64,000 bases of DNA from Albidovulum sediminis (GTDB taxonomy: Bacteria > Pseudomonadota > Alphaproteobacteria > Rhodobacterales > Rhodobacteraceae), in assembly GCF_025380365.1 (NCBI RefSeq), contig NZ_JAOCQF010000001.1, positions 1,476,245-1,540,244 of the forward strand, given 5' to 3'. This document shows, one piece after another, positions 1-27,985 of this stretch. Both the position numbers and the translations under genes were made by a program. Each line of letters begins with the position of its first letter. Positions within the stretch are counted from its first letter, which is position 1. The notes beneath the pieces were generated by a model that worked only from the letters and a program-made list of their open reading frames with translations, searched no databases and was not told the origin of the DNA.

Positions 1-46
1 GCCGCAGCCGGATCGGGAGAACGCTTTTGCGAGGGCAAGTGGCGGA
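1..46. repeat. Left copy of a 46-bp direct repeat, possible attachment site
   Basis: This sequence matches 38515-38560 in the same orientation at 42 of 46 positions; the differences are at positions 28, 31, 33 and 39. The right copy is the 3' flank, including half of the terminator hairpin, and the last few bases of the tRNA-Ser gene. The left copy is cut at position 44 by the end of an IS6 element, so any further tRNA-derived sequence is lost. A duplication of a tRNA 3' end and flank about 38.5 kb apart is what an island inserted at a tRNA leaves behind; a lost second tRNA-Ser copy would look similar. Confidence 0.6.
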
Positions 47-3182: not shown

Positions 3183-6100
3183 ATGGATGTTCGCAACCAC
3201 GAAACCGAACTGAAGCAGCTCGCCGCGTTCGTTCACGACGAATGCCAGAAGCGCCTCAGGGCCTACGAGGCGCAGCCGCGAGACGCGGCCGAGCATTTCG
3301 AGACCGAGAACGAAGTTCTGTCTGGCGGGTACGCGTACCGTCAGTTGTACGAACTGGTGCAGAACGCAGCCGACGCGATCCTCGAGGCCGCGGAGCCGCA
3401 AGGACGAATTCATGTCTTTCTCTCCCCTCATCGGCTTGAGGCAGCCAACACCGGGGCTGCCCTGGACGAACCGGGGATTGTGGCGCTTCTTAATGCGCGC
3501 AGCTCACCCAAGCGCGGCAATCAGATCGGCAGATTTGGGATCGGGTTCAAGTCGCTGCTCAAGCTGGGCGGTCGCGTTGACCTGACATCCAGATCTGTAG
3601 GACTGCGCTTCGACCCCGAAGCCTGCCGTGATCGCATTCGTGGACATCTTGGTCTTGCCAAGAATGCACCCGCCCCTGGCATGCGACTTGCCGAGGTACT
3701 GGACCCTGCTGCCGAAAGCAGTCCACTCTTCAGTACAAGCAGGTGGAGCTGGGCGACCACGGTCGTCTCGGCGGAGATATCGGATGACGCCGCATTCGAT
3801 CGACTGAGCCAGGAGATTGCCGATTTTCCGGCAGAGTTCCTGTTGTTCTTGCCCTCGGCTATCTCCCTCGAGCTTGAAGTTGAAGGGGCTGCACCCCGTC
3901 TCTTGACCAAGCGGTTTGAAGACGGATTCGCCGTTGTGGGTGACGGAACCAACGAGGCCCGATGGAAGGTCTTCGAGGCTTCGGTCAAGGTCGACAGCCA
4001 GGCCGCGCGCTCCGACGCAACTCACATCCAGGCAAGGGAACAGGTACCACTGTCTTGGGCAGTGCCGGTCGGTGGTCGTGAACAGGCTGGTCGCTTCTGG
4101 GCGTTTTTCCCGACCGAAACGCAGAGCCGCACTTCGGGCATTCTCAATGCTCCTTGGAAGCTCAACAGTGACAGGACCAACCTGATCAGGGGACCATGGA
4201 ACGAAGCGATAATGCAGGCAGCAGCTGATCTGATCAGCGGCTCTCTCACTGCGCTGTCGACACCCGAGGACTGCGGGGCCGCAGTAAGTGCGTTTCCGCG
4301 CCAACCGGAACGGCAGGACGAAATCGCCGTGCCCCTTGTCCGGTCTCTCTGGGACAAGATCATTTCGTCGGAAGTCTTGCCTGACGTGAATGGTATTCCT
4401 CGCATTCCAAGCCAGCTTCTGCGGCATTTTGTCGAGAACACGGAAATCTGCAGATCATGGGCCGACCTCGCAGGCACGGATGCGCGCGAACGTTACCTGC
4501 ATCCGGACTGCTACGTTTCCGAGGCACGGGTATCGCGGTTGAATGCTCTCGTCGCGGAAGCAAGACGCCGGGAGATGCAAGTCCTTGCTAAGTCGCCCGC
4601 CGACAAGTGGCTTGAATGCATTGCGAACACAGATATCGCATTGGCGAGACAGACCTTGGCTTTTGTCGGCAACCTCCTGCAGGAAAAGTTCAAACACGGA
4701 CTGTACAGTGTCCCTGAAGCACGCCTGATACCCACGGCCGATGGAGGCCTGGCCACTCCTTCGGAAGCCGTGATTGTTGAGGGGGTGGCAGCGCCATCTG
4801 GTTTCCTGGCCGTTACGTCTGAAATCGTCTCCGACCCGAACTGCAGAGCGGTTCTGATCGAACAGATGAAGGTGAGGCAGTTCGGTTCCGACTCTTGGCA
4901 CGAGCAACTCAAGGCTTCGCTGGAAAGGGCGAACACTGAGGATGACCCGTCGGATTGGGAGAATTTCTGGCAGAATTTCCTCTCAGCACCCGACGAAGCC
5001 AAGAACAGTTTCGTTGCGAAGCTCAGTGTTGGTAAGGTCAGGCTGTTTGCGGCTTCGGGCAAATGGCAGCGCCGGGGACTACTGGTCGTGCCGGATCAGC
5101 AGGTTGGGATTCCAGATGACAATATGCTGGATCTCGGTTTTCGGCGACGCATTGCACCTTACGTACCTTCGGACTGGCTTTCTGAGTTTCCCTCAGCGGT
5201 TGAACACGTGGATCGTCGCGAGCTGGAGATCGAAGGTTACCTGTCTCACCTGAAGCATGATGCTGCCGAGATACTCAGAGAACGAATGAATCGGAAGCCG
5301 CAGAGTTGGGCGCTGATCTTCGGTAGCGAAGAAGTTCGAATGCCTGGTGGCTGGCGTTTGCTAAAGCACCTTGCAGCAGCACCGGCGGCTCGACTCACAA
5401 CGCAGATGCTCGGTTCAACATCTGGCGAGATCAAGGTTGTTGATCCTGTTGAAATTGTTCACAGTACGCAATCACATGTCTATCCCGCGCTTTCGGCTCC
5501 ACATCCGATTTACTTTTGGCTGACGGAGCACGGATGGATACGCGTCGGCAACCTCGTAGCGCCGTTGAAGTGCATCCCTCTCGAACTTGCTGAGACCTTG
5601 GGCGACGCGGAAGTCGAGGGGTTCAAAGCTGTAGAAGGGTTTCTCCGTGCCAGGGACGTCAAGACGGACTTGGGGCCACGCTTGGCTTGGCCCAAGGCCA
5701 AACTTGCGCATGAGTGGATCACGCGCTTTTGGGAGGAGGTCTTCACGTCACTTTCGAAAAGAAGGAGTGATTTCAGGTCACTGCGGCCAGTGTGGGAGAT
5801 GGCGCATGCTGAAGGCGCCATTCCGGCCACTTTGCCCAGCGCCGATGGCGCGATCCCACTGTCGGAAATCTATGTGACCTCCGATCCGAGCGTCGGGCAC
5901 GATCTCGACGATGGAAGGATTGTCTTGCTGTCCCAGGAGATTGCATCGGCATGGGTGGCAGCCGGCGCAATCTGGCTTGGCACCGAGCCATCGATATCCT
6001 TCGAGAAGCGTCTGTCGGCTCCGTCCTACCTTCTCGACCTTTTCCCAGAGTTGGCGGCAGCACAGGAAGGCGCTGATGTCCTCAGTACGGTACTGGCCGT

Positions 6101-7892
6101 ATGGGTCAGCGGCCTTGAAGAAAACGTCGGACCCTTCAGTCGATCAGTGACGGTCGGGATGGACGCCGACGGCGCATTTCTCATCGATCGTGAGCAGTTT
6201 GGTAGTCGCGGCCGGAGGGAATGTATCGAGCTGCTGCTTCGCTGCCTTGCGCGCCACGGTATCATCCACGACGGGGCAGACATTCAAGAAACCCTATCAA
6301 GGATAATGGATCGCCGGTCAGACGAGGCGCGCAAGGCAGTTCGCGACGAGAAATCGCTTGAGCTCAGATTGCTGAAGGCGATCGGAGGTGACCTCGAGAC
6401 CCTGCTTGGGACCCTCACTCCTGCTACCCGTCAAGCAGTTGGGAACGATGTCGATCCGGAGAGTCTTGCCCGGCTGGCACTCGCGGTTCACGGACCGACG
6501 CTGCTCAGCAGGCTCAGGGACGCGCTCGAGCTTCAAGGGCTTGCGCCTCCCAATCGATGGGGTGGAGAACAGTCGCGCCTGTTTGTGCAAGAGCTTGGCT
6601 TTCCGATCGAGTTTGCTTCTTCGGTCGGCGGCCGGAGAGATGCAGAAATCTCCGTAAGCGGGCCGATCCACCTGCCAGCGCTTCACGATTACCAGGAAGA
6701 TATCCTGACGAGCATTGGCTCGCTTCTCGACTCAGGCACTGGCCGCCGCCGAGCTGTGGTCAGCCTGCCTACAGGCGGCGGTAAGACGCGTGTCGCTGCC
6801 GAGGCCGTCGTGCGGCTCGTCTTGAAGGGAGATGGGCGCCGAACCGCACTCTGGATAGCCCAGACCGATGAACTGTGCGAGCAGGCGGTCCAGTGCTTTC
6901 GCCAGCTATGGGTCAATGTGGGAGAGCCCGGCGAAGATCTTCGTATCGTGCGGCTATGGGGTGGTCAGCGAAACCCGTCACCGCCGGAGGGTGACGAGCC
7001 AACCGTAGTGATCGCAAGCATCCAGACCCTGAACAGCCGCAGCGGTCGCCCGGAACTCGCATGGGTCGCTCAGACCGGGATCATCGTCATAGATGAGTGC
7101 CATCACGCGATAACCTCGAGCTACACCGACCTGTTGCGATGGCTCGATGTTCAGGTCGGCAGCGAGCGAGCACGGGAGCGTGAAGCGCCCGTTCTCGGCC
7201 TCAGCGCAACACCTTGGCGCGGATACGATGAGGACGAGTCCGAGCGGCTTGCGGCGCGTTTTGACCGTCGCTGGTTTCCGGCCGACCAGGCTGGCCTTCA
7301 CGACAAGCTCTCCAGGATGGGCGTGCTTGCCGACCGGAGCTATCGCCCCCTTCGCTACGACAGGCCGATCACCCTGACAGAACGCGAACAGCAGCACGTC
7401 GATACGTTTGGGGAGCTGCCTGACAGCGTTGTGGATCGCATGGGCGAGGATTCCGACCGGAATGATCTGATCATCGATGCCATCGTGAACAGCAAGGCGG
7501 AGTCCATCCTCCTGTTCGCCAACTCTGTCGCACACGCGCAGTACCTTGCGGCGAGACTACACCTTGCAGATTGCCCTGCCGCCGCAGTCAGCGGTCAGAC
7601 GGACCGGCTTGCGAGGCAGCATTTCACACGACGGTTCCGTGCCGGCGATCTACGGGTAATCTGCAATCACAGTGTCCTGACAACAGGCTTCGATGCTCCA
7701 AGGGCCGACATGGTCCTGATCTCAAGACCGGTCTTCAGCCCCGTACTCTACATGCAGATGGTTGGCCGCGGTCTTCGGGGTCCAGCCAACGGCGGTACCG
7801 CTCACTGTGAAATCATGACGGTGGAAGACAACATCATCAATTTCCGGGATCGCCTTGCATACCACTTCTGCCGACGCTTCTTCGATGCCTGA
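3183..7892 (+). CDS. Sacsin/HSP90-type ATPase fused to SF2 DEAD/DEAH helicase
   Basis: A 1569-aa protein that starts the defence run. The N-terminus has a GHKL-type ATP pocket like that of sacsin: ELVQNAADAI at about residue 56 (N box) and GRFGIGFKS near 115 (glycine box). The usual DxGxG box is weak (ANTGAAL). A middle of about 1000 residues has no motif I recognise. The C-terminal 400 residues are a complete SF2 helicase: Walker A LPTGGGKT near 1194, DECHH near 1302, GLSATPWRG, and motif VI MQMVGRGLRG near 1523. ATG 3183 follows GAGG. It probably senses or remodels nucleic acid using two ATPase engines. GHKL ATPases coupled to helicases, DNA methylases and Vsr are known from bacterial restriction-type loci. 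Function here is inferred from context. Confidence 0.85.
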   Translation: MDVRNHETELKQLAAFVHDECQKRLRAYEAQPRDAAEHFETENEVLSGGYAYRQLYELVQNAADAILEAAEPQGRIHVFLSPHRLEAANTGAALDEPGIVALLNARSSPKRGNQIGRFGIGFKSLLKLGGRVDLTSRSVGLRFDPEACRDRIRGHLGLAKNAPAPGMRLAEVLDPAAESSPLFSTSRWSWATTVVSAEISDDAAFDRLSQEIADFPAEFLLFLPSAISLELEVEGAAPRLLTKRFEDGFAVVGDGTNEARWKVFEASVKVDSQAARSDATHIQAREQVPLSWAVPVGGREQAGRFWAFFPTETQSRTSGILNAPWKLNSDRTNLIRGPWNEAIMQAAADLISGSLTALSTPEDCGAAVSAFPRQPERQDEIAVPLVRSLWDKIISSEVLPDVNGIPRIPSQLLRHFVENTEICRSWADLAGTDARERYLHPDCYVSEARVSRLNALVAEARRREMQVLAKSPADKWLECIANTDIALARQTLAFVGNLLQEKFKHGLYSVPEARLIPTADGGLATPSEAVIVEGVAAPSGFLAVTSEIVSDPNCRAVLIEQMKVRQFGSDSWHEQLKASLERANTEDDPSDWENFWQNFLSAPDEAKNSFVAKLSVGKVRLFAASGKWQRRGLLVVPDQQVGIPDDNMLDLGFRRRIAPYVPSDWLSEFPSAVEHVDRRELEIEGYLSHLKHDAAEILRERMNRKPQSWALIFGSEEVRMPGGWRLLKHLAAAPAARLTTQMLGSTSGEIKVVDPVEIVHSTQSHVYPALSAPHPIYFWLTEHGWIRVGNLVAPLKCIPLELAETLGDAEVEGFKAVEGFLRARDVKTDLGPRLAWPKAKLAHEWITRFWEEVFTSLSKRRSDFRSLRPVWEMAHAEGAIPATLPSADGAIPLSEIYVTSDPSVGHDLDDGRIVLLSQEIASAWVAAGAIWLGTEPSISFEKRLSAPSYLLDLFPELAAAQEGADVLSTVLAVWVSGLEENVGPFSRSVTVGMDADGAFLIDREQFGSRGRRECIELLLRCLARHGIIHDGADIQETLSRIMDRRSDEARKAVRDEKSLELRLLKAIGGDLETLLGTLTPATRQAVGNDVDPESLARLALAVHGPTLLSRLRDALELQGLAPPNRWGGEQSRLFVQELGFPIEFASSVGGRRDAEISVSGPIHLPALHDYQEDILTSIGSLLDSGTGRRRAVVSLPTGGGKTRVAAEAVVRLVLKGDGRRTALWIAQTDELCEQAVQCFRQLWVNVGEPGEDLRIVRLWGGQRNPSPPEGDEPTVVIASIQTLNSRSGRPELAWVAQTGIIVIDECHHAITSSYTDLLRWLDVQVGSERAREREAPVLGLSATPWRGYDEDESERLAARFDRRWFPADQAGLHDKLSRMGVLADRSYRPLRYDRPITLTEREQQHVDTFGELPDSVVDRMGEDSDRNDLIIDAIVNSKAESILLFANSVAHAQYLAARLHLADCPAAAVSGQTDRLARQHFTRRFRAGDLRVICNHSVLTTGFDAPRADMVLISRPVFSPVLYMQMVGRGLRGPANGGTAHCEIMTVEDNIINFRDRLAYHFCRRFFDA

Positions 7893-7961
7893 CGCGTCAG
7901 GATGGAAATGTAGCTGTATTAAGCATTTGCATTGCCAGGTGATGATCTCCCGGCTAGCCTG

Positions 7962-8936
7962 ATGGAGGCCCAGAAAATAGGCGCGCATAGTTTCCATGCG
8001 CATCAGGCGGGCTGGGAGGCCGCGGTGGACAACGAGAGGTCTGAACTTCGCTGGGGAGTCGAGCAACGCCTCGAGTTCATAGAGTTCCGCCTCTTCTGGG
8101 AGGGACATGTGAACCGAAGCGACCTGATGGAGCAGTTCGGGGTCTCGGTGAACCAGGCGTCCACCGACCTGAACCGCTACAACAGCTTCGCACCCGACAA
8201 CATGGTCTACGACAAGAGCGCACGGACCTACGTCCGTGGCCCCGCGTTCAAGCCCCGGTTCCTCGAACCCGACGCAAGCCGCTACCTCGCCCAGCTTCGG
8301 TCGGTAGCGGACGGGATCCTCGACCGCGAGGACGCGTGGATCGCCGATCTCCCGCCCTACGCCTCGGCCCCGACCCCGGTGCGCGGCGTCAATCCGGTGA
8401 CGCTCCGCTCCGTGGTCGGCGCCATCCGTCGCTCCGAGGCTATCGAGGTGAAGTACCAGCCCCTGTCCAGCCCGGACCCGCGCTGGAGGTGGATCGCGCC
8501 GCACGCCATCGCGTTCGACGGGTTTCGCTGGCACACGCGCGCGTTCTGCCTGACCGACAAAGCGTTCAAGGACTTCCTGCTTTCGCGAATACTGGAGATT
8601 CGCGGGTCGCGGATGAGCGAAGTGCCTTCAGGGCACGACGGCGACTGGAATACCGAAGTTACCCTGGAGATCGGGCCCCACCCCGCCCTGTCGGAAACTC
8701 AGGCAAAGGTCATCGCGCTTGACTACGGGATGCGCGGCGGCAAGGCGAAAATCAAGGTCCGACGTGCGCTGTTGTACTACGCGCTCAGGCGTCTCGGGCT
8801 CGATACTGATCCCGACGCAAGGAAGCCGCAGGATCAACAGATCGTGCTCTTGAACCGTGAGACACTTGGGGATTCAGCGCGATCGGCGTCGAACGCAGAT
8901 CTGAATACGACAGCAACACAAGACATTGTTCGGTAG
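7962..8936 (+). CDS. WYL-domain regulator, BrxR/CapW-like
   Basis: About 324 aa. An N-terminal winged helix (FWEGHVNRSDLMEQFGVSVN) is followed by a WYL ligand-binding domain with the signature segment IAPHAIAFDGFRWHTRAF and KDFLLSRI. A C-terminal dimerisation-type region completes it. The arrangement matches BrxR/CapW proteins, which repress phage-defence operons and release them on an unknown signal. Starts are uncertain: ATG at 7962 has a poor ribosome site, while a GTG at 8025 has GGGAGG five bases upstream and still keeps the whole DNA-binding domain. It is 69 bp after the ATPase-helicase and 14 bp before the UvrD gene, so it sits inside the operon it probably controls. Confidence 0.85.
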   Translation: MEAQKIGAHSFHAHQAGWEAAVDNERSELRWGVEQRLEFIEFRLFWEGHVNRSDLMEQFGVSVNQASTDLNRYNSFAPDNMVYDKSARTYVRGPAFKPRFLEPDASRYLAQLRSVADGILDREDAWIADLPPYASAPTPVRGVNPVTLRSVVGAIRRSEAIEVKYQPLSSPDPRWRWIAPHAIAFDGFRWHTRAFCLTDKAFKDFLLSRILEIRGSRMSEVPSGHDGDWNTEVTLEIGPHPALSETQAKVIALDYGMRGGKAKIKVRRALLYYALRRLGLDTDPDARKPQDQQIVLLNRETLGDSARSASNADLNTTATQDIVR

Positions 8937-8950
8937 GGAATTCTGTAGCC

Positions 8951-10825
8951 ATGAATATTGCTGGAAAAGCTCCGCTGGATACAGGCTGGGATGCAGATCA
9001 GCGCAAAGTGATCGAAGCAGATACGAACGCCCGACTTGCGGTTGAAGCGGGTCCCGGAACCGGAAAGACAGCCGTCGCCTGCGCGCGCCTCGCGCACCTG
9101 ATTAACGAAGAGGATATCGAGGCCAGCAATACCTGGATGATCAGCTTCACGCGGACAGCGGTGGCGGAAATCCGTGCACGGCTGCATTCCTACGTTGGCG
9201 ATGCATCCTTTGCCATCCGGATAGCGACCATCGACTCCCATGCGTGGTCCATCCACTCCGGGCACGACCCGAATGCGAGGCTGACCGGTTCCTACGAAGA
9301 GAACATTACCCGCGTCATCGAGCTGTTGAAGTCTGATGAGGATGTGGCAGACGAACTGGCGCAGATCGAGCACGTCGTCATTGACGAGGCACAGGACCTT
9401 GTTGGGCAGCGAGCGGATTTGATCGAGGCTCTGGTGAATCGGCTGCCTTCGGACTGCGGAGTCACGGTGTTCGCCGACGAGGCCCAGGCGATCTATGGCT
9501 TCTCCGACGACAGCATCGGACGTCGCAAGGGGGAAGCCTCAAAGCCTGGCATGCCGCTCCTCGACCGCTTGCGAGGCGTGAAGGCACTCGGCTTCACCAC
9601 TTTTGTCCTTAAGGAGATTTATCGCACGTCCTCCCCCGGGCTTCGCAAGATCTTCTCCGAGTTACGGAGTGATGTGCTCGACAAGCAGAAACACCGCGAC
9701 GGGTTGCACGGCCAGACAGCGGAGAGAATCCGGGCGCTGGCGGACCAGCAAGGGCTGAAGTGGACGCAAATGAAAGTTGCGGACTTCACGAGCGATGACC
9801 TCTTGCTCTTCCGAACTCGTGCTGAAGTCCTGATGGCATCGCAATTCTGTGCCCTTCCACATCGGCTGCGCCTGTCAGGATATGGGGTAACGCTGCCGGC
9901 ATGGCTGGCGATCTGTTTCGCGGATTTTGTTGATCCGTTTATTGCCGAACGACGCTTTCTGGATCTCTGGGCGGCGCGCATCGAGAACAAGGCTGCGCCG
10001 CATTATGGTCCAGCTGAAGCCTGGCAACACCTCATGCGCGTTGCCGGCCGCAAGGACGGCTCTGTTGATATGCAGAGGCTGAGAAGGCGCCTGGGCCAGA
10101 CCCGCCCCCCTGTCGAGTTGACGCTCCCCGAATACGGTCTCCACGGACCGATCGTCGGAACGATACATGCCAGCAAGGGTCGCGAGGCCAGCAACGTCGT
10201 TCTGCTGCTGCCGAACGGCGTGGAGTTCGAGAGCATCGAGGACGAAATAGAAGAAACGCGTGTGCTCTTTGTCGGAGCCACGCGTGCGCGCGCATCCCTG
10301 ATTGTCGGGGAGAGCCACGCGTTCAGAGCATCAACATTGGCATCAGGACGGGTTCATCGTTCGGCCAGAAACGGCAAATCGACGATGGTTGAGATCGGCC
10401 GTGATGGCGACATCACTGCGCGCGGTCTCGTCGGTCGCAATGAATTCAGCGCAGCCGACGCCGCGGCAGGACAGGCATTTCTCACCAAGGTCGCCGATGT
10501 CGTCACGACCTACAAGCTGGAAGCGGATGCCGATCTCGATTGGCGCTACAGGATCCGAGCTGGCAACGAGGGCCCTCGCGTCGGTGCCCTGTCGCGCAAC
10601 CTCACGTACGACCTGTGGGAGATACTGTCGAACAGGAACCAGAAGAAAAGCCACAGGCCGCCGGGCTACGTAAATCACGTCAGAGGTCAGGGCTGTGCAA
10701 CAATTGTCCTGAGTCCGGACGACAATGACCTCGAGACATTGAATGAACCATGGGCTTCCTCCGGTTTCATCCTGACGCCGAGAATTGCTGCGTTCCCCCC
10801 CTTCTTCTTTTCAGGCCGGAGGTAG
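8951..10825 (+). CDS. UvrD/Rep-like SF1 helicase
   Basis: A 624-aa SF1 ATPase. Visible motifs are Walker A EAGPGTGKTA near residue 35, motif Ia SFTRTAVAEIRARL, the Walker B VIDEAQDL near 143, motif III VFADEAQAIYGF, and in the C-terminal half TIHASKGREASNVVLLL with VGATRARASLIV. It would unwind or translocate along DNA using ATP. No nuclease domain is evident within it. ATG 8951 is preceded by AGGGAA. It ends 5 bp before drmA, indicating co-expression. UvrD-type helicases are not part of the canonical DISARM set, so its presence is one of the features that make this locus unusual. Confidence 0.88.
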   Translation: MNIAGKAPLDTGWDADQRKVIEADTNARLAVEAGPGTGKTAVACARLAHLINEEDIEASNTWMISFTRTAVAEIRARLHSYVGDASFAIRIATIDSHAWSIHSGHDPNARLTGSYEENITRVIELLKSDEDVADELAQIEHVVIDEAQDLVGQRADLIEALVNRLPSDCGVTVFADEAQAIYGFSDDSIGRRKGEASKPGMPLLDRLRGVKALGFTTFVLKEIYRTSSPGLRKIFSELRSDVLDKQKHRDGLHGQTAERIRALADQQGLKWTQMKVADFTSDDLLLFRTRAEVLMASQFCALPHRLRLSGYGVTLPAWLAICFADFVDPFIAERRFLDLWAARIENKAAPHYGPAEAWQHLMRVAGRKDGSVDMQRLRRRLGQTRPPVELTLPEYGLHGPIVGTIHASKGREASNVVLLLPNGVEFESIEDEIEETRVLFVGATRARASLIVGESHAFRASTLASGRVHRSARNGKSTMVEIGRDGDITARGLVGRNEFSAADAAAGQAFLTKVADVVTTYKLEADADLDWRYRIRAGNEGPRVGALSRNLTYDLWEILSNRNQKKSHRPPGYVNHVRGQGCATIVLSPDDNDLETLNEPWASSGFILTPRIAAFPPFFFSGRR

Positions 10826-10830
10826 CCGCA

Positions 10831-13800
10831 ATGCAGGACAAGTCACTCGATAGGGATACCGTCGCCTGTCGGCTTGCTGAGGATCTTATCGGGCCGCGTG
10901 CAGAGGACGAGGAACTGACGGCACGCCCGTCGGATGTCTACCTCACCGGCATCCTATGGCCCCAGCGTACGGCGATGTCGAGCGAGGATGATGAACGCCT
11001 CGGGACCGCGGGCGCTGGCTCGGGCGAGGAGAGCGACGGCGAGAACGATGCAGTCAGGACCGGCTCGATCCAGAAGCCCTCCGTGGCAGGCATATCATTC
11101 AGCGTTGTTGCGTCCATTGGTATCCCGCAAGTGCGGGTTACTTGCAGCTTCGCCACGTATCGGACCGAAAAGCGCGACGACGTCGACATCTGGGTCCGCC
11201 AACCGCACAGGGTTGAGATTCCAGTTCTTGATCTGCCGCCCGGCCCTACGCGTGAGCTTGCGCTTGCGGAACACGGTGACGGGCTGCCCAATGTCTCGCT
11301 CAGTGTCAGATGCATAAGTGCAGGTGGGCCCGTTCTCGTCACTCTCTCACTCGTGAATTCGATAGTCCCAGAACAGGGTCGAAACGAGATCGAGGCTGCG
11401 TCGCTGTTCCAGACGGCTCTTCGCGTCGAGCCCTGTGATGGCACTCTGCTGGTGCCGAAGCCCCCCCGGCGCGCGGCATCGCGGCATCAAGGGGGGGCCG
11501 ACGTGCCCGCCGCCGTGAGTGACGAGGAAAGCGGAGCTCTGCTGTACAGGAACGTGGCCGAGTTTGCCGTCGGACATGTCTGCTCCGCCGAGTGGGAATC
11601 CTTGGACCACGCAGCCGGAACCCGCCCCACTGCACGATGGGTCGGGACGACCTGGCTCCCTTCAGCGATCGTCGAGGGCGTCGATCCGAATGGCCACACA
11701 GTCTTTTCCGAGCTTGGCAAGGACAGCGGGGGTTTCGATCCGCTTTCGGCTGAGGCACTGGCCTGCGCCGATGCAGCGAACCTCGAACAGGGGCTGCAAC
11801 TTTTCTGCGATGCCTACGACCGTTGGATAAAATTGCAGCGGAAGCGCCTCGACGACACGTCGGACGTGGGATCAGAACTGAGAGCCGTGGCTGAGGCGCA
11901 TCTAGCCCAATGTGATCTGGCGCTTGGGCGTATGCGGGCATCGGTCGACCAGCTTGGCACCGATCCGCGCCTGCGCCGCGCTTTCCAGCTGGCAAACCTT
12001 GCCATGCATCTGCAGCATTCATGGGACAACTCAAAGAGCCGCCACGGCCCCCTGCGCTGGCGCCCGTTCCAGCTGGGGTTCCTGCTCCTCAGTGCACCAT
12101 CCTCGGTCATCCGTGATCACATGCACCGGGGCGTCATGGACCTCCTCTGGTTTCCCACCGGCGGTGGCAAGACCGAGGCATACCTCGCGCTGATCGCGTG
12201 CATCGCCGTGTATCGTCGGCTCTCGGATGATCCGAGTGACCACAGCGGTGTCTGTGCCCTCATGCGCTACACGCTGCGACTTCTCACGACCCAGCAGTTC
12301 GCACGCTCTGCCGCGATGATCGTGGCCTTGGAGGCGATACGCTCTGGTCGCGAGTCGGCACCCGACGGCTTGCCGCTTCAAGGTGACGAACCTTTCTCTA
12401 TCGGCCTTTGGGTCGGAGGGGACGCTACTCCCAACAAGCGTGCCGACGCATTCGCTTCCCTCCGAGGGTCTTCGGAGGTGGCTTCGCCAAAACAGCTCGC
12501 CCGCTGTCCAGCCTGTGGCGAGAAACTGACCTGGTCGATGGCGAGCGCCACTTCACCCGTTGATGCCGAATGCACGAACAGCACGTGCAAGATGCACGGA
12601 AGACTACCTGTCTTCACTGTGGACGAGGATGTCTACGACAACCGGCCGACGTTGCTCATTGGAACTGCCGACAAGTTCGCTCAGATCGTCCGCGAGAAGA
12701 GAACCAACGGCCTGCTTGGAGTTTCGGATGGCTCTCCACCTGACCTCATCATCCAGGACGAGCTGCACCTAATCTCCGGGCCTCTGGGGACGATCGCGGG
12801 CGCATATGAGGCGGCATTCGACCTGATGTTCGCCGTGCGCGGACACCGGGCAAAGGTCATTGGCTCGACCGCTACGATCCGCAGAGCTTCGGAGCAGGTG
12901 CTGGCCCTTTTCGATCGCGAAGCATTCCAATTCCCACCGCCAGCGATAGATCACGACGATTCCGGTTTCGCGGTTCGTGATCGGCGGCCGAAGGCTGTGG
13001 GGAGACGCTATCTCGGTGTCACAACGGCCGGTCGATCGGCAAAGTTCACGTTGCAGGCAGTTGCGGGCTCCCTGCTGCAAACGGCGTTCGGGGCATTCAG
13101 CGATGATGTTCGCCGGGATGCCTACTGGACGCTCGTCGGGTACTTCAACTCGCTTCGCGAGCTTGGAGGTGCGCTCGTCCTCATGCAGGACGACGTAACC
13201 GACAGCATCGCGCTCTACGCTGATGCTCGCGCCGAGGAGAGAAGACCCCTCAGCAACGTCGAGGAACTGACATCCCGGCGAACGCAGGAAGAAATCCGCG
13301 GAATGCTCGACCTGCTCGACATCAAGGTCGGTTTCCCTGGCGCTGTTGATGCCGTTCTCGCGACCAACATGGTCAGCGTCGGCGTGGACATTTCGCGGCT
13401 GGGACTGATGCTGGTCAACGGACAACCCAAGACCATCGCCGAGTACATCCAGTCGACCAGCCGCGTCGGGCGGGGAGACGTCAGCGGCCTTGTCGTCTCG
13501 GTTCTCAACAACGCGAAGGCGCGCGACCGTTCTCATTTCGAGACGTTCTGCAGCTGGCACCGCACGCTCTACAGGGATGTTGAGGCGACCAGCGTTACTC
13601 CCTTCGCGTCACGGGCTCGCGACAGGGCGCTGCATGCGGCACTGGTTGCCGCAGTGCGCCACCTTGTTCCCGACATGCTCGACTCTCCCAGCATGGACGA
13701 CGACGCGGAAGATCTGGCGATGGACCTCATCGACCTGCTCGTCGAGCGGGCGAAGCGGGTCGATCCGGAAGAGACTGCAGTCCGAAGAGAGCTTGAGCGC

Positions 13801-14025
13801 CGTCTCGACACATGGCGGGCAAGGTCCCCCACAGTTTACTGGAGTGACCACAAGGGAGGGAAATCCCTTCTCCAGAGTGCCGAGCGCGCTGCCGCTCGCC
13901 GGGCCGCCGGCCGCGACGCCGGTGCCGCCTGGCCCACCCTCAACTCCATGCGGACCGTCGAGGCTGGAACTCCCTTCAGGATGGCCCCTGTCCTCAGGGC
14001 AAAGGATGATACGCATGAAGAATGA
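10831..14025 (+). CDS. drmA: DISARM-type helicase DrmA
   Basis: A 1064-aa protein. The helicase core has LLWFPTGGGKTEAYLAL (Walker A near residue 441), a four-cysteine cluster (CPACGEKLTW...C...C) inserted before motif II, IIQDELHLISGPLGT near 641, GSTATI, and STSRVGRG near 873. The QDELHLI and SGPLGT text and the inserted zinc cluster are characteristic of DrmA, which with DrmB forms the core of DISARM and blocks incoming phage DNA. Start: ATG 10831 with GGAGGT seven bases upstream; an upstream in-frame ATG at 10750 lies inside the preceding gene. The gene overlaps drmB by 11 bp. Identification is strong; the partners present are not those of standard DISARM. Confidence 0.9.
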   Translation: MQDKSLDRDTVACRLAEDLIGPRAEDEELTARPSDVYLTGILWPQRTAMSSEDDERLGTAGAGSGEESDGENDAVRTGSIQKPSVAGISFSVVASIGIPQVRVTCSFATYRTEKRDDVDIWVRQPHRVEIPVLDLPPGPTRELALAEHGDGLPNVSLSVRCISAGGPVLVTLSLVNSIVPEQGRNEIEAASLFQTALRVEPCDGTLLVPKPPRRAASRHQGGADVPAAVSDEESGALLYRNVAEFAVGHVCSAEWESLDHAAGTRPTARWVGTTWLPSAIVEGVDPNGHTVFSELGKDSGGFDPLSAEALACADAANLEQGLQLFCDAYDRWIKLQRKRLDDTSDVGSELRAVAEAHLAQCDLALGRMRASVDQLGTDPRLRRAFQLANLAMHLQHSWDNSKSRHGPLRWRPFQLGFLLLSAPSSVIRDHMHRGVMDLLWFPTGGGKTEAYLALIACIAVYRRLSDDPSDHSGVCALMRYTLRLLTTQQFARSAAMIVALEAIRSGRESAPDGLPLQGDEPFSIGLWVGGDATPNKRADAFASLRGSSEVASPKQLARCPACGEKLTWSMASATSPVDAECTNSTCKMHGRLPVFTVDEDVYDNRPTLLIGTADKFAQIVREKRTNGLLGVSDGSPPDLIIQDELHLISGPLGTIAGAYEAAFDLMFAVRGHRAKVIGSTATIRRASEQVLALFDREAFQFPPPAIDHDDSGFAVRDRRPKAVGRRYLGVTTAGRSAKFTLQAVAGSLLQTAFGAFSDDVRRDAYWTLVGYFNSLRELGGALVLMQDDVTDSIALYADARAEERRPLSNVEELTSRRTQEEIRGMLDLLDIKVGFPGAVDAVLATNMVSVGVDISRLGLMLVNGQPKTIAEYIQSTSRVGRGDVSGLVVSVLNNAKARDRSHFETFCSWHRTLYRDVEATSVTPFASRARDRALHAALVAAVRHLVPDMLDSPSMDDDAEDLAMDLIDLLVERAKRVDPEETAVRRELERRLDTWRARSPTVYWSDHKGGKSLLQSAERAAARRAAGRDAGAAWPTLNSMRTVEAGTPFRMAPVLRAKDDTHEE

Positions 14026-15874
14026 CCTTCAGGATTTGCGTCGCAGCGCAGTCGTTTCGACATTTGGCCCCGGCTCGGTGGTGGATTTCAGGGCGGGTGG
14101 AGGAGCTGTTTCGGGTATCGCAGCGGGCCTGGAGGAATGGGATCGCTCATTCCCCCCGGCTGGTCTTGCCCACCCGCAGGTCATCCGTGAGACACGCTTG
14201 CAGAAGAAGCTGGGCGTGAAGGGATTCAGGACACCCCCTGTGACGCTGGAGCGGGGAAAGGATGACGATCCGGATACCCGGCGTCTCGTCGCCGTGCGCT
14301 TCCCGAAATGGCTGCAGTGTCCCGGCTGCGATGTCGTCAGGCCGGAACGGCGATGGAAGAACGATCCGGGCAAAGCCTATCGCTACTGCGCTACGTGCAC
14401 GGAAAAATCCCATGGTGACAGCAAGGTCTTCGTCATCCCCGTCCGCTTCGTAATGGCCTGCAAGCATGGCCACGTCGACGAGTTCCCCTGGGACTGGTGG
14501 GTGGGGCACAAGCCGGATTGCACGGTTTCGAAGCGTGACAATGCGGAGCGTCATCCCGGCCTGATCCTGCGGTCCGAGAAACCCGGCCTTGCCGGCCTCA
14601 TCCTCAGTTGCCCCAAGTGCGGCGCGCGTCGGTCGATGGACGGCGTTTTCTCGAAGAAGACCTGGGAACGTGGGCCGAAATGCCGGGGGCACAGACCTTG
14701 GCTGGCCGATGGCGATGAAACTTGCGGCAAGGAGCAGTACGCGGTGCAGCGAGGTGCGTCCAACCTCTACTTTGCCGTGACGGAGTCAGCCCTCAGCATC
14801 CCGCCCTGGTCCGACCGTCTTCAGGAAGTTCTGGGCGACTGGTGGAGTTCCCTGACGAATCTCGATGACCTGTCCAAGCTTGAGGAATACATCGGATTCC
14901 TGGCTAAAGGTGACCTGGAGAGCATCCTGAAGGAGCTCGAGATGTCACCTGCCGAACTGGCAGAGGCGATCCGTGCGCGCCTCAAGTCATACGGACAGAT
15001 GCGGACCGACGACCTGCGTCCGGCAGAATACCGACAATTCGTCACGGAGCCTGGTCGGAGTCGGACCCCCGACATCGACTTCGAAACCCGAAGAGAAACT
15101 GTATCTCCTGATATAGCTCGCTGGATCTTCAGAGTTGTACGGGCTGTCCGCCTTCGCGAGGTGCGTGCCATCAAGGGATTCACCCGGATCAATCCGCCTG
15201 GGGATCCCGACTCACCCGAAGTGGCACGGCTCTCCAAGGCTCCGCTTGAGTGGCTGCCGGCGATTGAAGTTCGAGGCGAAGGCATCTTCCTCGCACTGAA
15301 CGAGGAACGGCTGGCGACGTGGGAAGCCCGACCTGACGTCATCGCGCGCGTATCCGAGTGCGAGACGCGACACCAGGCGGACTGGAAGGAGCGCTATGGC
15401 GACGATGCAAAGCCGCCGCAGGCGAGTACCCCGCGTTACATGCTCTGTCACACCCTCGCGCACGCGCTCATGCGTCAACTGACGCTTGAGTGCGGATACT
15501 CCTCCGCGTCCCTTCAGGAGAGGATCTATGCCGGGACGGGCGATGAGCAGATGGCTGGACTTCTGATCTATACCGCAACACCGGACTCCGATGGAACGCT
15601 CGGCGGGCTCGAACGGCAGGGAAAGGCGGGGCGCATCGAGGGCATCCTGCAACGTGCTATAGACGCGATCGAGTGGTGCTCATCCGATCCGCTCTGCATC
15701 ACGGATATGATGGGAGCGATCAACAGCTACTCCCATTCGGTCTGCCACGCATGCTGCCTTGCTCCCGAGACATCATGTGAGGCCTTCAACAGCTTCCTTG
15801 ACCGCGCGCTGCTGACCGGGGACGGGACGGGTTCGGGGCTCGGATACTTCGAAGACATGCTTCGGAGAAGCTGA
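14015..15874 (+). CDS. drmB: DISARM protein DrmB (DUF1998)
   Basis: A 619-aa protein. The N-terminus RRSAVVSTFGPGSVVDFR is the usual DrmB opening. Two zinc-type clusters follow (CPGCDVV...CATC near residue 105-135 and CPKCGARRS near 200). The C-terminal DUF1998 part has LCHTLAHALMRQL, YTATPDSDGTLGG and SYSHSVCHACC with several Cys. DrmB is the obligate partner of DrmA; the pair loads on DNA ends. ATG 14015 is best placed relative to AAGG; ATG 14006 is the alternative. The open frame extends far upstream into drmA, but that part is a shadow. Its stop overlaps the next start by one base (TGATG). Confidence 0.9.
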   Translation: MKNDLQDLRRSAVVSTFGPGSVVDFRAGGGAVSGIAAGLEEWDRSFPPAGLAHPQVIRETRLQKKLGVKGFRTPPVTLERGKDDDPDTRRLVAVRFPKWLQCPGCDVVRPERRWKNDPGKAYRYCATCTEKSHGDSKVFVIPVRFVMACKHGHVDEFPWDWWVGHKPDCTVSKRDNAERHPGLILRSEKPGLAGLILSCPKCGARRSMDGVFSKKTWERGPKCRGHRPWLADGDETCGKEQYAVQRGASNLYFAVTESALSIPPWSDRLQEVLGDWWSSLTNLDDLSKLEEYIGFLAKGDLESILKELEMSPAELAEAIRARLKSYGQMRTDDLRPAEYRQFVTEPGRSRTPDIDFETRRETVSPDIARWIFRVVRAVRLREVRAIKGFTRINPPGDPDSPEVARLSKAPLEWLPAIEVRGEGIFLALNEERLATWEARPDVIARVSECETRHQADWKERYGDDAKPPQASTPRYMLCHTLAHALMRQLTLECGYSSASLQERIYAGTGDEQMAGLLIYTATPDSDGTLGGLERQGKAGRIEGILQRAIDAIEWCSSDPLCITDMMGAINSYSHSVCHACCLAPETSCEAFNSFLDRALLTGDGTGSGLGYFEDMLRRS

Positions 15875-17559
15875 TGGCGGTGCTCTGGCCAAGGAAACTC
15901 CCCCGCTCGGTCCTCGATGACCCCAGACGCCGGGCTGAGGTTCGCGTTTACGATCGCCTCGCTGACGTCCTCGACGACAGTTTTCATGTCTTCTACTCGA
16001 GCCCCTGGCTGGGCACTGACAATCTGGGTAACGAGAGGGACGGTGAATGCGATTTCCTGATCGCGCACCCCATCCATGGCATTCTCGCCATCGAGGTAAA
16101 GGGCGGGAAGGAAATCTCGTTCGATCCGAGGGACGGTCAGTGGCGCAGCACGGATCACGGCGGTTTCGTCCACAAGATCAAGGATCCGGTGGCACAGGCG
16201 CGAAGCGCAAAGCATGAGATCCTGAAGCGGCTCAACGAGTCAGCAAGATGGCCCAAGCGCTTCATTCATTCTGCCCATGGAGTGATCTTCCCCGGTACAG
16301 GCTCGCCTCCCGGCAACCTCGGAGCTGATCGCCCGGCCTCGATCTTCTGTTGTTCGCGCCAGTTGCAGCATGGACTTCGCGGATGGTTGGATGACCGACT
16401 GAAGGCAGGGAAACGGCCAGACAATTGCGAGGCTCTGGGCCACGACGGCATCGCCGCGCTGGAAAGGCTGCTGGCGCATCCTTTCAAGCTCAGCTTCCGC
16501 ATCGGCGCTGCTCTTGCAGAGGCCGACACGGAGTTCCGCGTTCTTGAACCGTCCCAGTACCATATCCTCGACGTCATCGCCGATATCCCCCGGGCGCTCA
16601 TCCGGGGAGGCGCAGGGACTGGCAAAACGGTGGTGGCAATCGAGGAAGCGATCAGGTCTGCCGCGGCTGGACGGAAGACCCTTCTGACCTGTCACAGTCG
16701 GCCGCTCACAACGAACCTCGAGCGGAAGCTGAGGGGCGTCCAGAACCTTACGGTGGCCGGATTTCACGCTCTGTGTGGGCGCATCTCGCATCAGGCTGGT
16801 GTTCCGCCACCTTCCAATATCAGTGAGCAGGAACTTTATGAAACAGCGCTTCCCCACGCGCTCTACCGCGCGGTGGAGTTTCAGCCTGCACTCAGGTGGG
16901 ACACGATCATTGTCGACGAAGGCCAGGACTTCAGCGCCGACTGGTGGATCGCAATAGATGCCTGCCTGACCCATGGTGGACACCTTCGTGTGTTCATGGA
17001 CAGCAACCAGAGGGTCTACGAGAGCGCGGGGGTTAGCGTTCACGACCTGAGTGTCATTCCGGTTCGGCTTTCTCGGAACCTCCGAAACACAAAGAACATC
17101 CACAATGCCGCTTCAGTGCATTATTCCGGTCCCGAGATAGTCGCAGATGGACCCGATGGTCTCGCTGTCTCGTGGGTCACTGCCGAGAATGCTGATCAAA
17201 AGATCGAAGCCGCATACAGGGAGCTTAGACGGCTCGTATTCAATGAGGAAGTCGCTCCTGGCGACATAGCCGTGCTTGTCAACGGACCAGCCGCCCGAAC
17301 CAGTTTCGTCGAAAGAAGCAGCGGGACCAGCATCCCACTCACAGATGCAGAAACGATGGCGCTCGAGGATGTGGTGGTGGATACGGTGCGGCGGTTCAAG
17401 GGTCTGGAGCGCCCGGCAATAATCCTGATTGCGAGCGGCGATGAAATGGACCACCGCGAGCTGGCCTATGTCGCGTTCTCTCGTGCGCGGGCCTACCTTT
17501 GCATCGTGTCATCCCGAGGGGAGGCCAAGTGGCTGTCGGAAGGGTTGCCGGATACCTGA
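15874..17559 (+). CDS. NERD nuclease fused to UvrD-like helicase
   Basis: A 561-aa protein. Residues 20-125 form a NERD nuclease-related domain with the PD-(D/E)xK pattern ECDFLI (D60) and LAIEVKGG (E74, K76). From about 240 an SF1 ATPase follows: IRGGAGTGKTVV, VDEGQDFSADWW near 347, VDTVRRFKGLE and LAYVAFSRARAYL. Start and drmB stop share one base, implying translational coupling. It occupies the position where DISARM operons usually carry drmC (phospholipase D), so it may be the effector nuclease here; that replacement is an inference. It ends 26 bp before the convergent methyltransferase gene. Confidence 0.88.
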   Translation: MAVLWPRKLPRSVLDDPRRRAEVRVYDRLADVLDDSFHVFYSSPWLGTDNLGNERDGECDFLIAHPIHGILAIEVKGGKEISFDPRDGQWRSTDHGGFVHKIKDPVAQARSAKHEILKRLNESARWPKRFIHSAHGVIFPGTGSPPGNLGADRPASIFCCSRQLQHGLRGWLDDRLKAGKRPDNCEALGHDGIAALERLLAHPFKLSFRIGAALAEADTEFRVLEPSQYHILDVIADIPRALIRGGAGTGKTVVAIEEAIRSAAAGRKTLLTCHSRPLTTNLERKLRGVQNLTVAGFHALCGRISHQAGVPPPSNISEQELYETALPHALYRAVEFQPALRWDTIIVDEGQDFSADWWIAIDACLTHGGHLRVFMDSNQRVYESAGVSVHDLSVIPVRLSRNLRNTKNIHNAASVHYSGPEIVADGPDGLAVSWVTAENADQKIEAAYRELRRLVFNEEVAPGDIAVLVNGPAARTSFVERSSGTSIPLTDAETMALEDVVVDTVRRFKGLERPAIILIASGDEMDHRELAYVAFSRARAYLCIVSSRGEAKWLSEGLPDT

Positions 17560-17585
17560 GATCGCAGGTTGAATGATCACCAGGA

Positions 17586-19118
17586 TCAGTGCACTGCTTT
17601 CAGGACCAGCATGGCAATCTGCCTCGCAAGGAAAGGCGGTACGGCATTGCCAACCTGGACATACTGCTGCGTGCGGTTGCCGAGGAAAAAGTAATCGTCG
17701 GGAAAGGTCTGCAGACGAGCAGCTTCGCGAACCGTCAGGCTCCGGCACTGGATCGGATCGGGGTGAATGAAGTAGTGACCATCCTTCGAGATGTGGCTCG
17801 TGACCGTGGTCGACGCCTCGTCCGCCAGCTGAACCCGGAAGCGGTCATTGAACACGCCGCTGTGCCAGTTTCGGTGATCCGGACTCAGCGCCAGAGGGAA
17901 ATCGGCGGCCTTCGGGCTGTAGCCACGGACGGTTCCGAACACGGCAGTATAAAGGTATCGTCCCAGATCCGACGCCATGTGCCCGCGCGTTTCGTGCTGG
18001 GCCATCGCGCGAAGTCCCGGTCGCTCGATCCACTGGAGCAACTCATCGTTCGACGCGCCGTAGCCATCCGGCAACCGAAACGCCGCCCGAACAGTTGGCG
18101 AATTGTCCTTCAGTCGCTGCGAAACAGATAGGAACGCTTCGCGGAGCGCGCGGTTGTCCTTTCCCTTGGAGATGTCGGCCAGCAACTTCGCGGCGTAGAG
18201 GACTTCTCCTCGCCAGGAAGCGGCGTCGTCGCGCCCGCGGCTGATGCCGCTTCGCAAGTTGGGCATCGTTTCGATGACTTCGCGGACGGTTCGTACCATC
18301 CCGGATACAGCGATCTCCGCATCGGCGGCTCGTCCTGCGAGGTCCGAGCGGATGCCGACGATGATCACCCTGTGGCGACGCTGCGGAACTCCGAACGCCT
18401 CGGCGCGCACAACGAAATCCGAAGGTTGTGCCGCCTCCTGCAGGCTGGCCTTGCCATCCTCGACCCGGACGGCACGAAGTTCGTAGTGATGGGCGTGACC
18501 CGTGCCGAGCGAGGACAGATCCTCCATCAGCATCTCGAAAACCAGCCGGCTCTCGACCGTGGACGAGAGCATGCCCTTGACATTTTCCATAACGAAGGCG
18601 GCCGGGCGAAGCTTGTCGAGGACCCGGATATACTCCCGAAAGAGGTAGTGCCGCGCATCCTCCTCCGGGACGTAGCCGACCTTGCCTCTGGAGCGGACGC
18701 GCCCCACCAGGGAATAAGCTTGACAGGGCGGGCCGCCGATCAGGATCGTGTCGTCGTACTTTCGTTTCAGCGTCGCGATGGCGCCATCTATGGCGGTCGC
18801 CGCAGCCCCGGTGCCGAGCTCAAGCGCGCGGGCTTCGTCGATGGCATGCTGCCACGCTTCGGCATCGACGACTGACCAGTCCGGTTCGGATGCCAGCCCG
18901 GCATGGAAATCGATGAACTCTTTCGGCAAGACGCCATGACGTGCACGGTACTCGCGCAGAAAGGCACGCAGCGTCAGGGTCCGATGGGCCGACGCCTCCT
19001 TCTCGACCGAAATGCCGATCCGGAACGGCGTATGGCCGTCCTCTACGAGGGAGGCGAACCCCTCGCCAAGTCCGCCCGGGCCGGCGAACAGATCGACAAT
19101 GCCGAAAGTGGAAGGCAA
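17586..19118 (-). CDS. C5-cytosine DNA methyltransferase
   Basis: A protein of about 510 aa that methylates cytosine at C5 using SAM. Motifs in order: I GIVDLFAGPGGLGEGF at the start, IV GGPPCQAYS near residue 128 with the catalytic Cys, VI ENVKG, VIII PQRRHR, IX SLTVREAARLQTFP and X QVGNAVPP. The variable target-recognition region lies between VIII and IX. I chose TTG at 19118 because AGGAG sits six bases upstream and motif I follows at once. An ATG at 19253 is in frame but would run into the divergent vsr gene. DISARM class 2 uses a C5 methyltransferase (DrmMII) to mark self DNA; this enzyme may play that part. Confidence 0.9.
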   Translation of the reverse strand: MPSTFGIVDLFAGPGGLGEGFASLVEDGHTPFRIGISVEKEASAHRTLTLRAFLREYRARHGVLPKEFIDFHAGLASEPDWSVVDAEAWQHAIDEARALELGTGAAATAIDGAIATLKRKYDDTILIGGPPCQAYSLVGRVRSRGKVGYVPEEDARHYLFREYIRVLDKLRPAAFVMENVKGMLSSTVESRLVFEMLMEDLSSLGTGHAHHYELRAVRVEDGKASLQEAAQPSDFVVRAEAFGVPQRRHRVIIVGIRSDLAGRAADAEIAVSGMVRTVREVIETMPNLRSGISRGRDDAASWRGEVLYAAKLLADISKGKDNRALREAFLSVSQRLKDNSPTVRAAFRLPDGYGASNDELLQWIERPGLRAMAQHETRGHMASDLGRYLYTAVFGTVRGYSPKAADFPLALSPDHRNWHSGVFNDRFRVQLADEASTTVTSHISKDGHYFIHPDPIQCRSLTVREAARLQTFPDDYFFLGNRTQQYVQVGNAVPPFLARQIAMLVLKAVH

Positions 19119-19185
19119 ATCAGGCTCCTGACGAATTTCATTCAGCCGGTGTATACCAAGTTCAGGGACGAAAACCAGGACGGAT

Positions 19186-19650
19186 GTGACAGATATCGTG
19201 GACCAGCAGACCCGTTCCCGGATGATGTCGGGGATCAGGGGAAAGAACACCAAGCCCGAGCTGGCTCTCAGGCGGGCATTGCACGCGCGCGGTTTTCGCT
19301 TCCGGCTTCATTCCGGCAAGGTTCACGGTCGACCGGACCTTGTCCTTCCGAAGCACCGCGCCGTGGTCTTCGTGCACGGCTGCTTCTGGCACCGACACGA
19401 GGGGTGCCGCTACGCGACCGTACCGGCAACCCGGCCGGACTTCTGGAGGGCGAAGTTCGATGCGAACGTCGCCAGAGACAGCGCCGTTCGCACAGAACTC
19501 CTCGAAGACGGGTGGCGCGTGGCGACGGTATGGGAGTGCGCCCTGCGGAAGCCGGAACAGGTGGAAGCCTCGACGGAAAGCCTGTCGATGTGGCTGCGAA
19601 CAGAAGAACTTCAGATCGAGATCGGCGACAACAACGCACGTCGATCCTGA
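19186..19650 (+). CDS. vsr: Very short patch repair endonuclease Vsr
   Basis: A 154-aa protein of normal Vsr length. The opening MTDIVDQQTRSRMMSGIRGK is typical. Catalytic and zinc residues line up with the Escherichia coli enzyme: D51 in GRPDLVLP, then C66, H69, H71 and C74 in HGCFWHRHEGC, with a further Cys near 118. It nicks beside T:G mismatches that arise when 5-methylcytosine deaminates. It is divergent from the C5 methyltransferase with about 67 bp between the chosen starts, the usual Dcm-Vsr partnership. The start is GTG at 19186 with AGGA upstream. Confidence 0.92.
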   Translation: MTDIVDQQTRSRMMSGIRGKNTKPELALRRALHARGFRFRLHSGKVHGRPDLVLPKHRAVVFVHGCFWHRHEGCRYATVPATRPDFWRAKFDANVARDSAVRTELLEDGWRVATVWECALRKPEQVEASTESLSMWLRTEELQIEIGDNNARRS

Positions 19651-20824: not shown

Positions 20825-20839
20825 GGGCGGGGTGTACAC

Positions 20840-27449: not shown

Positions 27450-27985
27450 CGACGCACGATCCGATCCCCGCGCGCCTGGCCGCGCTGAAGTCCGCGCCGA
27501 CGCCGGAGTTGAAGCGGCAGTGGCGCGACCTCTTCGACAGCGAGCCGCCGCCGTTCAACCGGCGCTACCTGGAAAGCCGCCTCGCGTACCGCATTCAGGA
27601 ACTGGCCTATGGCGGGTTGAAGCCCGAGACGATCCGGCGGCTGGAACGGCTGGGCGAGGACCTGGACGGTGGGGACAAGAAGAAGCGCGGAATGCGCCTC
27701 GACCGCGACCGCCCGATCACTGGCACGCGGCTCCTGCGCGAATGGCAGGGGGTGGAGCATGTCGTCACCGTCACCACCGACGGCTTTGAATGGCAGGGGC
27801 GGCCCTACAAGTCGCTGTCGGCCATTGCCCGCGCCATCACCGGCACGCGTTGGAACGGCTGGGTCTTCTTTGGGTTAAGGCGCGATGGCCGCAGGCCAGC
27901 GGAGGCTCCAGTGGAGCGTCCGCAGAGCCGTACGCACGATGCGCAAGCATCGGGCCGGCAGAAGAACCATCGGGGGCGGACATGA
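27446..27985 (+). CDS. DUF2924 protein
   Basis: A 179-aa protein of the DUF2924 family: a helical N-terminus (LKRQWRDLFDSEPPPFNRRY, RLAYRIQELAYGGL) and a C-terminal beta-rich part (GTRLLREWQGVEHVV, YKSLSAIARAITGTRWNGW). It is nearly always encoded just before a large serine recombinase in alphaproteobacterial phages. It probably assists recombination, though no mechanism is established. It overlaps both neighbours by four bases. Confidence 0.85.
   Translation: MTTHDPIPARLAALKSAPTPELKRQWRDLFDSEPPPFNRRYLESRLAYRIQELAYGGLKPETIRRLERLGEDLDGGDKKKRGMRLDRDRPITGTRLLREWQGVEHVVTVTTDGFEWQGRPYKSLSAIARAITGTRWNGWVFFGLRRDGRRPAEAPVERPQSRTHDAQASGRQKNHRGRT

Follow-up and report, generated by a model that had tools for sequence, protein, structure and literature searches.

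Two classes of DISARM are known: class 1 has drmD and drmMI, class 2 has drmMII and drmE, and both have drmA, drmB and drmC. In the excerpted text of PMC9142583, DrmAB of Serratia DISARM binds and translocates on single-stranded or forked DNA. DISARM is reported there to work without the PLD nuclease DrmC, and the route of DNA destruction is described as unsettled. The available part of PMC12458937 describes ARMADA, in which a YprA helicase is fused to an OB-CON-DUF1998 module and accompanied by BrxHII-like and PglX-like genes; ARMADA type II has a GajB-like UvrD helicase carrying a RelE-like domain. According to the same part, many uncharacterized DISARM-like classes exist. A DISARM-like cassette linked to McrBC is given in a figure legend of PMC11090510 as YprA, DUF1998, SWI2/SNF2 and PglX. 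The word "NERD" is absent from the main text of that paper, which defers details to a later publication. In the excerpted text of PMC10952713, NERD is listed for Mokosh type I and Nhi-like systems and not for DISARM.

The window analyzed here is a stretch of 64,000 nucleotides of Albidovulum sediminis DNA. The eight genes that the original prediction named at 3183-19650 are open reading frames close to where it had placed them, and scans with PADLOC and Pfam confirmed the names. The plus-strand run starts with a GHKL (Hsp90-like) ATPase fused to an SF2 helicase (3183..7892; 1569 aa), which we treat as an exchangeable partner. Its N-terminus is of the TmtA type (3.5e-52, residues 11-451), its C-terminus matches ResIII/Helicase_C (PADLOC, Pfam) and residues ∼450-850 are variable. 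A WYL-domain regulator follows on the same strand (7932..8936; PADLOC/Pfam, start uncertain).

The next four genes, all on the plus strand, form the core. They encode a UvrD-like SF1 helicase resembling GajB (8951..10825; PADLOC/Pfam), a DrmA-like YprA-family SF2 helicase (10831..14025; PADLOC DrmA, 6.2e-193), DrmB with its DUF1998/MZB zinc domain (14006..15874; PADLOC DrmB, 1.7e-81) and, as the final core gene, a NERD nuclease domain fused to a UvrD-type helicase (15874..17559; RTasNERD-Hel, 4.3e-53). Overlaps or gaps between them are at most 20 bases, and the true starts of DrmA and DrmB are probably at 10831 and 14006. A D...ExK-like motif was spotted by eye in the NERD-helicase. The predicted structure of the UvrD protein had a pLDDT of 56, and its C-terminal domain is unreadable from the model.

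Beyond the core lie a C5-cytosine DNA methyltransferase (17586..19253, minus strand) and a Vsr very-short-patch-repair endonuclease (19186..19650, plus strand; PADLOC/Pfam profile match). Both had been predicted to flank the run and both are present, but the two genes are divergent, with the methyltransferase on the minus strand, so it shares no transcript with the core. The best PADLOC model for the methyltransferase is DrmMII (6.3e-81), so this gene is not foreign to DISARM; general type II models match it too. The single nuclease-like domain that had been counted becomes two nuclease-like proteins, NERD and Vsr.

We compared the neighborhoods of these genes in other genomes. UvrD-DrmA-DrmB-NERD/UvrD (8951-17559) kept its order and strand in the window and in 11 other loci (L019, L020, L021, L024, L035, L041, L042, L043, L044, L071 and L072; DrmB of L071 is interrupted by ∼2 kb). 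For the core, the proposed co-occurrence is thus beyond chance. Three further loci were left out of the core count: L063 and L064, which are identical over 14.4 kb, represent one locus and end within DrmB, and L013, which begins within DrmA. L045 has UvrD-DrmA-DrmB without a full NERD match. Four class-1 controls (L047, L078, L079 and L080), with the order DrmD-DrmMI-DrmA-DrmB, gave no UvrD or NERD match at 1e-3; the same search detected NERD in L074, L076 and L077 and UvrD in L045. In the control L079 a Vsr match lies farther away. The DrmA row of L063 has one in-frame stop and the frame of L064 is shortened, so this DrmA copy may be broken.

The loci came from several searches. Scanning genome contigs for the GHKL-helicase yielded 28 loci. 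Among plasmids, 168 records matched the GHKL-helicase and 85 matched DrmA at 1e-5, and 13 matched NERD at 1e-20; 12 of these records were examined, and four of the core loci examined sit on plasmid-labelled records. At 1e-40, DrmA matched in 9 of 385 genomes of the class, the window included: the core is in the window and G651, G327 has a short fragment and the remainder have other DrmA types. NERD is rare at the same cut-off, with matches in 2 of 398 genomes of the phylum (the window and G014). Because the loci were retrieved using these genes as queries, the frequencies are biased and do not amount to a census. The survey tblastn missed the NERD-helicases of L076 and L077, so its gaps are weak evidence of absence, and the controls were re-tested. 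No description of the UvrD-DrmA-DrmB-NERD set, and no exact match to an already named system, was found in the open literature searched; a published description may exist elsewhere.

NERD-helicases also accompany DrmAB in another order. L074 (2755-13103), L076 (3508-13749) and L077 (7168-17411), from three alphaproteobacterial genomes, have a DrmE-like gene, a NERD-helicase, DrmA and DrmB in a class-2-like row. The DrmE score of L074 is 64 bits, below the family cut-off of 80. L070 (7611-22637) and L069 have a NERD-helicase and an SNF2 pair with no DrmAB match listed, and in L070 the NERD-helicase adjoins a 2094-aa helicase.

The DrmA phylogeny, built from 24 proteins, places each of the 13 core-type rows (12 full-core loci plus L063) on the same side of a branch supported at 100/99. 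Class-1 DISARM is represented by four rows on a separate branch (94/93), and the DrmE-NERD loci by three on a third one (99/97). Another four rows are ungrouped, and eight rows of the tree have long branches. Support for the deeper joins is weak (64/91), and any order of descent would be tentative.

The neighbors of the core were less regular. The original prediction had treated all eight genes as a single distinct system; in the survey only UvrD-DrmA-DrmB-NERD/UvrD is stable and its neighbors vary, and this rules out a single fixed eight-gene system. Half of the 12 full-core loci (the window, L019-L021, L024 and L035) have the GHKL-helicase next to the core, divergently in L035 and with WYL in between in the window; in L013 it is 4.8 kb from the core. 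In L041, a type III Mod-Res pair separates WYL from UvrD. Genes for a C5 methyltransferase, a McrB-like protein, a DUF2357/McrC-like protein and Vsr stand beside the core in L042, and a divergent SNF2 pair does in L043, L044 and L072. A C5 methyltransferase is upstream of the core in L071; in L024 and L041 a relative lies 3' of the core and is encoded on the other strand. L041 has a divergent methyltransferase-Vsr pair like that of the window. This pair occurs twice around the L041 core, at 461-2492 and 20828-22877. Besides the window, only L041 and L063 had a WYL match near the core, in both cases upstream of it.

Even the close relatives (the window, L041 and L063) differ in the partner slot. 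DNA of the window and L063 is 96% identical from 8036 to 15167 (WYL to DrmB), the latter position being near the end of L063. Upstream of WYL, L063 has a large serine recombinase and no GHKL-helicase. The GHKL-helicase is therefore not tied to the core.

The GHKL-helicase keeps other company elsewhere. Matches spanning at least residues 19-1567 were present in 15 of the 28 loci (L033 in two frames), and partner sets were checked by PADLOC with one member per set. The core is adjacent in four of these 15 (L019, L020, L021 and L035). L013 has the core 4.8 kb off together with a 74-residue remnant of a PDC-S68-like gene. A PDC-S68-like gene adjoins the GHKL-helicase in five (L014, L015, L022, L026 and L028); in these loci the GHKL-helicase and the RecD-like, PDC-S68-like helicase make a recurring two-gene set. 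BREX genes PglX-PglZ-BrxL stand by it in three (L016, L018 and L028, the last also PDC-S68-like), type III Res and Mod genes in one (L033), and none of those partners in L023 and L017, the latter a 7-kb contig. Overall, 10 of the 15 have no core gene match within the DNA examined, and the GHKL-helicase also occurs without DrmAB within 10 kb.

These observations bear on the rival reading that two independent systems lie side by side, the GHKL-helicase on one hand and WYL-UvrD-DrmA-DrmB-NERD with the methyltransferase and Vsr on the other, with only the island in common. The 10 coreless loci speak for it, as do the PDC-S68-like and BREX partners, the pairing of the close GHKL-helicase relatives in L014 and L015 with PDC-S68-like genes, and the WYL-core of L063 without a GHKL-helicase. 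DNA matches to the window also change partner at the GHKL/WYL junction: that of L014 ends at 7892, and those of L041 and L063 start at 7951 and 8036. Against it, the GHKL-helicase is by the core in 6 of 12 loci, and these are spread over three parts of the DrmA tree, a distribution suggesting that the pair was chosen more than once. We regard two independent systems as a serious possibility, though short of probable; the GHKL-helicase may be an unrelated neighbor in a defence island.

A tree of the GHKL C-terminal region was compared with the core label. The label needs 4 changes (3-4 over the bootstrap), and 220 of 500 shuffles do as well; the starred branches force only 2 changes, and 9 of 17 inner branches are open. 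On a single origin of the GHKL-core link, this tree says no more than that the core-linked copies do not form one clade.

Within the GHKL-helicase, the center differs from its flanks. In 50-residue windows against four close homologues, mean identity was 0.86-0.99 up to residue 450 and 0.92-0.98 over residues 1051-1550, and only 0.32-0.42 over residues 551-750. Codons 551-850 (4833..5732, plus strand) had pS of 0.68-0.71 and pN of 0.33-0.37, compared with pS of 0.16-0.38 and pN of 0.02-0.03 for codons 1-400 and pS of 0.25-0.42 and pN of 0.01-0.02 for codons 1201-1569. When the homologues were compared with each other, the rise over codons 551-850 was milder (pN 0.08-0.24). As controls, UvrD, DrmA, DrmB and NERD (window against L041 and L024) and the C5 methyltransferase (window against both L041 copies) had no 50-residue window below 0.52 identity. 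The jump in pS favors recombinational exchange over selection alone as its cause. As judged from these sequences, residues 551-850 were probably exchanged between conserved flanks, and this suggests a swapped recognition domain.

The N-box and G2-type motifs of the GHKL-helicase are invariant in 16 sequences. A structure predicted for residues 1-1130 had a mean pLDDT of 82 and a pTM of 0.47, with the variable part mostly confidently folded. The best 50 of 62 PDB matches (0.001) for this model are all of the Hsp90 family, and no match to the central domain alone is among those best 50 of 62.

Family scores place the locus near DISARM. DrmA scored 845.2 bits against NCBIfam DrmAS, below the equivalog cut-off of 950, and 617.1 bits against DrmAL (cut-off 999), so DrmAS fits better. 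DrmB scored 516 bits against DrmB_fam, above the cut-off of 240. In a structure search with DrmA, the single solved match at 0.001 was DrmA 7s9v (7e-127). The DrmA and DrmB profile matches confirm that the locus is DISARM-related, as predicted.

The window plus 10 kb upstream was searched by tblastn at 1e-4 for parts of known systems. DrmC, partial DrmD, DrmMI and three DrmE-like queries gave no match there; neither did PglX, PglZ, BrxL, Mod, Res, McrB and McrC, nor the SNF2 pair, a second GHKL protein and two PDC-S68-like queries. The positive controls DrmA and Vsr were recovered. The DrmC query was one cyanobacterial protein, DrmMI and partial DrmD came from L047, and the DrmE-like queries were taken from L074, L076 and L077. 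PLDc_2 has seven matches in the 4.29-Mb genome, none inside the window, and the nearest on the same contig is ∼380 kb off. Thus drmC is missing as had been noted, and the gene content is unlike class 1 and class 2, with no match to drmC, drmD, drmMI or drmE.

Under a second rival reading, the locus descends from class-2 DISARM by loss of drmE and drmC and gain of the UvrD and NERD helicases. The DrmMII-like methyltransferase, the better fit of DrmA to DrmAS than to DrmAL, and the row of DrmE-like, NERD-helicase, DrmA and DrmB genes in L074, L076 and L077 are in its favor. However, drmE and drmC have no match in the window, and the DrmA tree keeps the core rows apart from the DrmE-NERD group (99/97); its joining branches are weak (64/91). 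We consider this derivation rather unlikely.

The locus lies in an apparent island bounded by imperfect direct repeats ∼38.5 kb apart. The left repeat (1..67, extending 20 bp left of the window) is 85% identical over 87 columns to the right one (38495..38578), which overlaps the 3' end of a tRNA-Ser(GGA) gene (38554-38643, minus strand; Rfam). At the gathering threshold, Rfam found nothing besides this tRNA in four source sequences. About 175 bp by the tRNA-Ser(GGA) repeat end recur in L041, L065, L025 and L040, and the copies in L025 and L040 adjoin tRNA-Ser genes. A large serine recombinase within the island (27790..29292, plus strand; Resolvase, Recombinase, Zn_ribbon_recom) shares 62% identity with the recombinase that precedes WYL in L063. 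The region also carries two transposases whose DDE domain is of the IS240 type. A search at the DNA level for an empty site, across 22 genomes of the genus, returned mostly partial pieces from 10 of them (among these the window's own genome) and established no empty site. The same island encodes a second NERD protein, which bears a zinc ribbon of the topoisomerase type (21424-22173), and an N6/N4 DNA methyltransferase (23044-24357).

The UvrD, NERD and Vsr families occur in DNA repair too. That the core is a DNA-repair or anti-plasmid module and not an anti-phage one is nevertheless improbable: YprA-family helicases are also found in repair (available part of PMC12458937) and four core loci are on plasmid-labelled records, but the core keeps company with type III restriction, McrBC-like, BREX and methyltransferase genes, and its spread is patchy (the window and G651, with a fragment in G327, among 385 class genomes).

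On balance, a DISARM-related anti-phage island that combines a recurring effector core with exchangeable partners is, in our view, a fairly probable explanation of the locus. What was observed is the order of the genes, their family matches, a single DrmA grouping, the exchange of partners, the mosaic center of the GHKL-helicase and the repeats at the flanks. The conserved ATPase motifs and the Hsp90-fold match also count in favor; DrmA below its equivalog cut-off and WYL beside the core in few loci count against.

From the families and the published work on DrmAB we infer how such a core with partners might act. WYL, by its place and family, would control expression. By homology, DrmA with DrmB would bind and translocate on invading single-stranded or forked DNA, and UvrD and the NERD-UvrD protein would extend the unwinding. 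The NERD nuclease would cut the DNA, so that the NERD-helicase probably fills the nuclease role of the missing PLD nuclease DrmC. Host DNA would be marked by the C5 methyltransferase, with Vsr repairing T:G mismatches from deaminated 5mC. Least certain is the GHKL-helicase, which could be a separate plug-in with an Hsp90-like ATPase and an SF2 motor whose exchanged central domain recognizes a feature of the invader and helps to start or direct the attack.

A bolder form of the core-plus-partners reading, which we put forward only tentatively, is a third DISARM-like lineage with a UvrD-DrmA-DrmB-NERD engine and interchangeable modules: the GHKL-helicase, type III restriction-modification, McrBC with a C5 methyltransferase and Vsr, and the SNF2 pair. 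In this lineage the GHKL-helicase would gain specificity by swapping its folded central domain, much like the specificity subunits of restriction systems.

Redrawn as a core with partners, the unit is a relative of DISARM that has been little described so far, and it suggests an immune engine with interchangeable recognition parts. A NERD nuclease tied to the DrmAB core allows a direct test of where the cutting activity resides. If the partners are truly exchangeable, the core would be a general effector callable by different sensors, and the variable GHKL domain would represent a novel type of recognition module.

Compared with DISARM classes 1 and 2, the locus likewise has separate and adjacent drmA and drmB genes and, as in class 2, a drmMII-like C5 methyltransferase nearby. 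In contrast, UvrD and NERD-UvrD helicases flank DrmAB here, drmC, drmD, drmMI and drmE have no match, and DrmA stands apart from the class-1 controls and below the NCBIfam equivalog cut-off. The DrmE-NERD-DrmA-DrmB loci (L074, L076 and L077) also have a NERD-helicase directly beside DrmA-DrmB. However, they have a DrmE-like gene and no UvrD match, and their NERD gene precedes DrmA, whereas that of the window follows DrmB.

PADLOC TmtA, which we take to be Tiamat, matches the N-terminus of the GHKL-helicase, but the best model covers residues 11-451 of 1569 and not the full length. A PDC-S68-like gene is the commonest other partner seen for the GHKL-helicase, but no PDC-S68-like match is in the window. 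Gabija's arrangement of GajA beside GajB is not found: the UvrD gene has WYL and DrmA as neighbors, and the GajB match is partial.

ARMADA, a possible relative raised in the original prediction, shares a YprA-family helicase with the window, and ARMADA type II also has a GajB-like UvrD helicase. In ARMADA, as far as described in the available part of PMC12458937, YprA and OB-CON-DUF1998 are fused, whereas DrmA and DrmB of the window are separate genes; the RelE-like domain of the GajB-like helicase was not seen on the window's UvrD by Pfam. PglX, DrmMI, SNF2 and DrmD queries, which are not ARMADA's own proteins, matched nothing in the window or in the 10 kb upstream of it. Within that description, the unfused YprA and the lack of a PglX match rule out ARMADA, and the locus is distinct from it by gene content. 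The McrBC-linked cassette of the PMC11090510 legend has a likeness among the surveyed loci: L042 and L046 likewise have C5 methyltransferase, McrB-like, McrC-like and Vsr genes near DrmAB.
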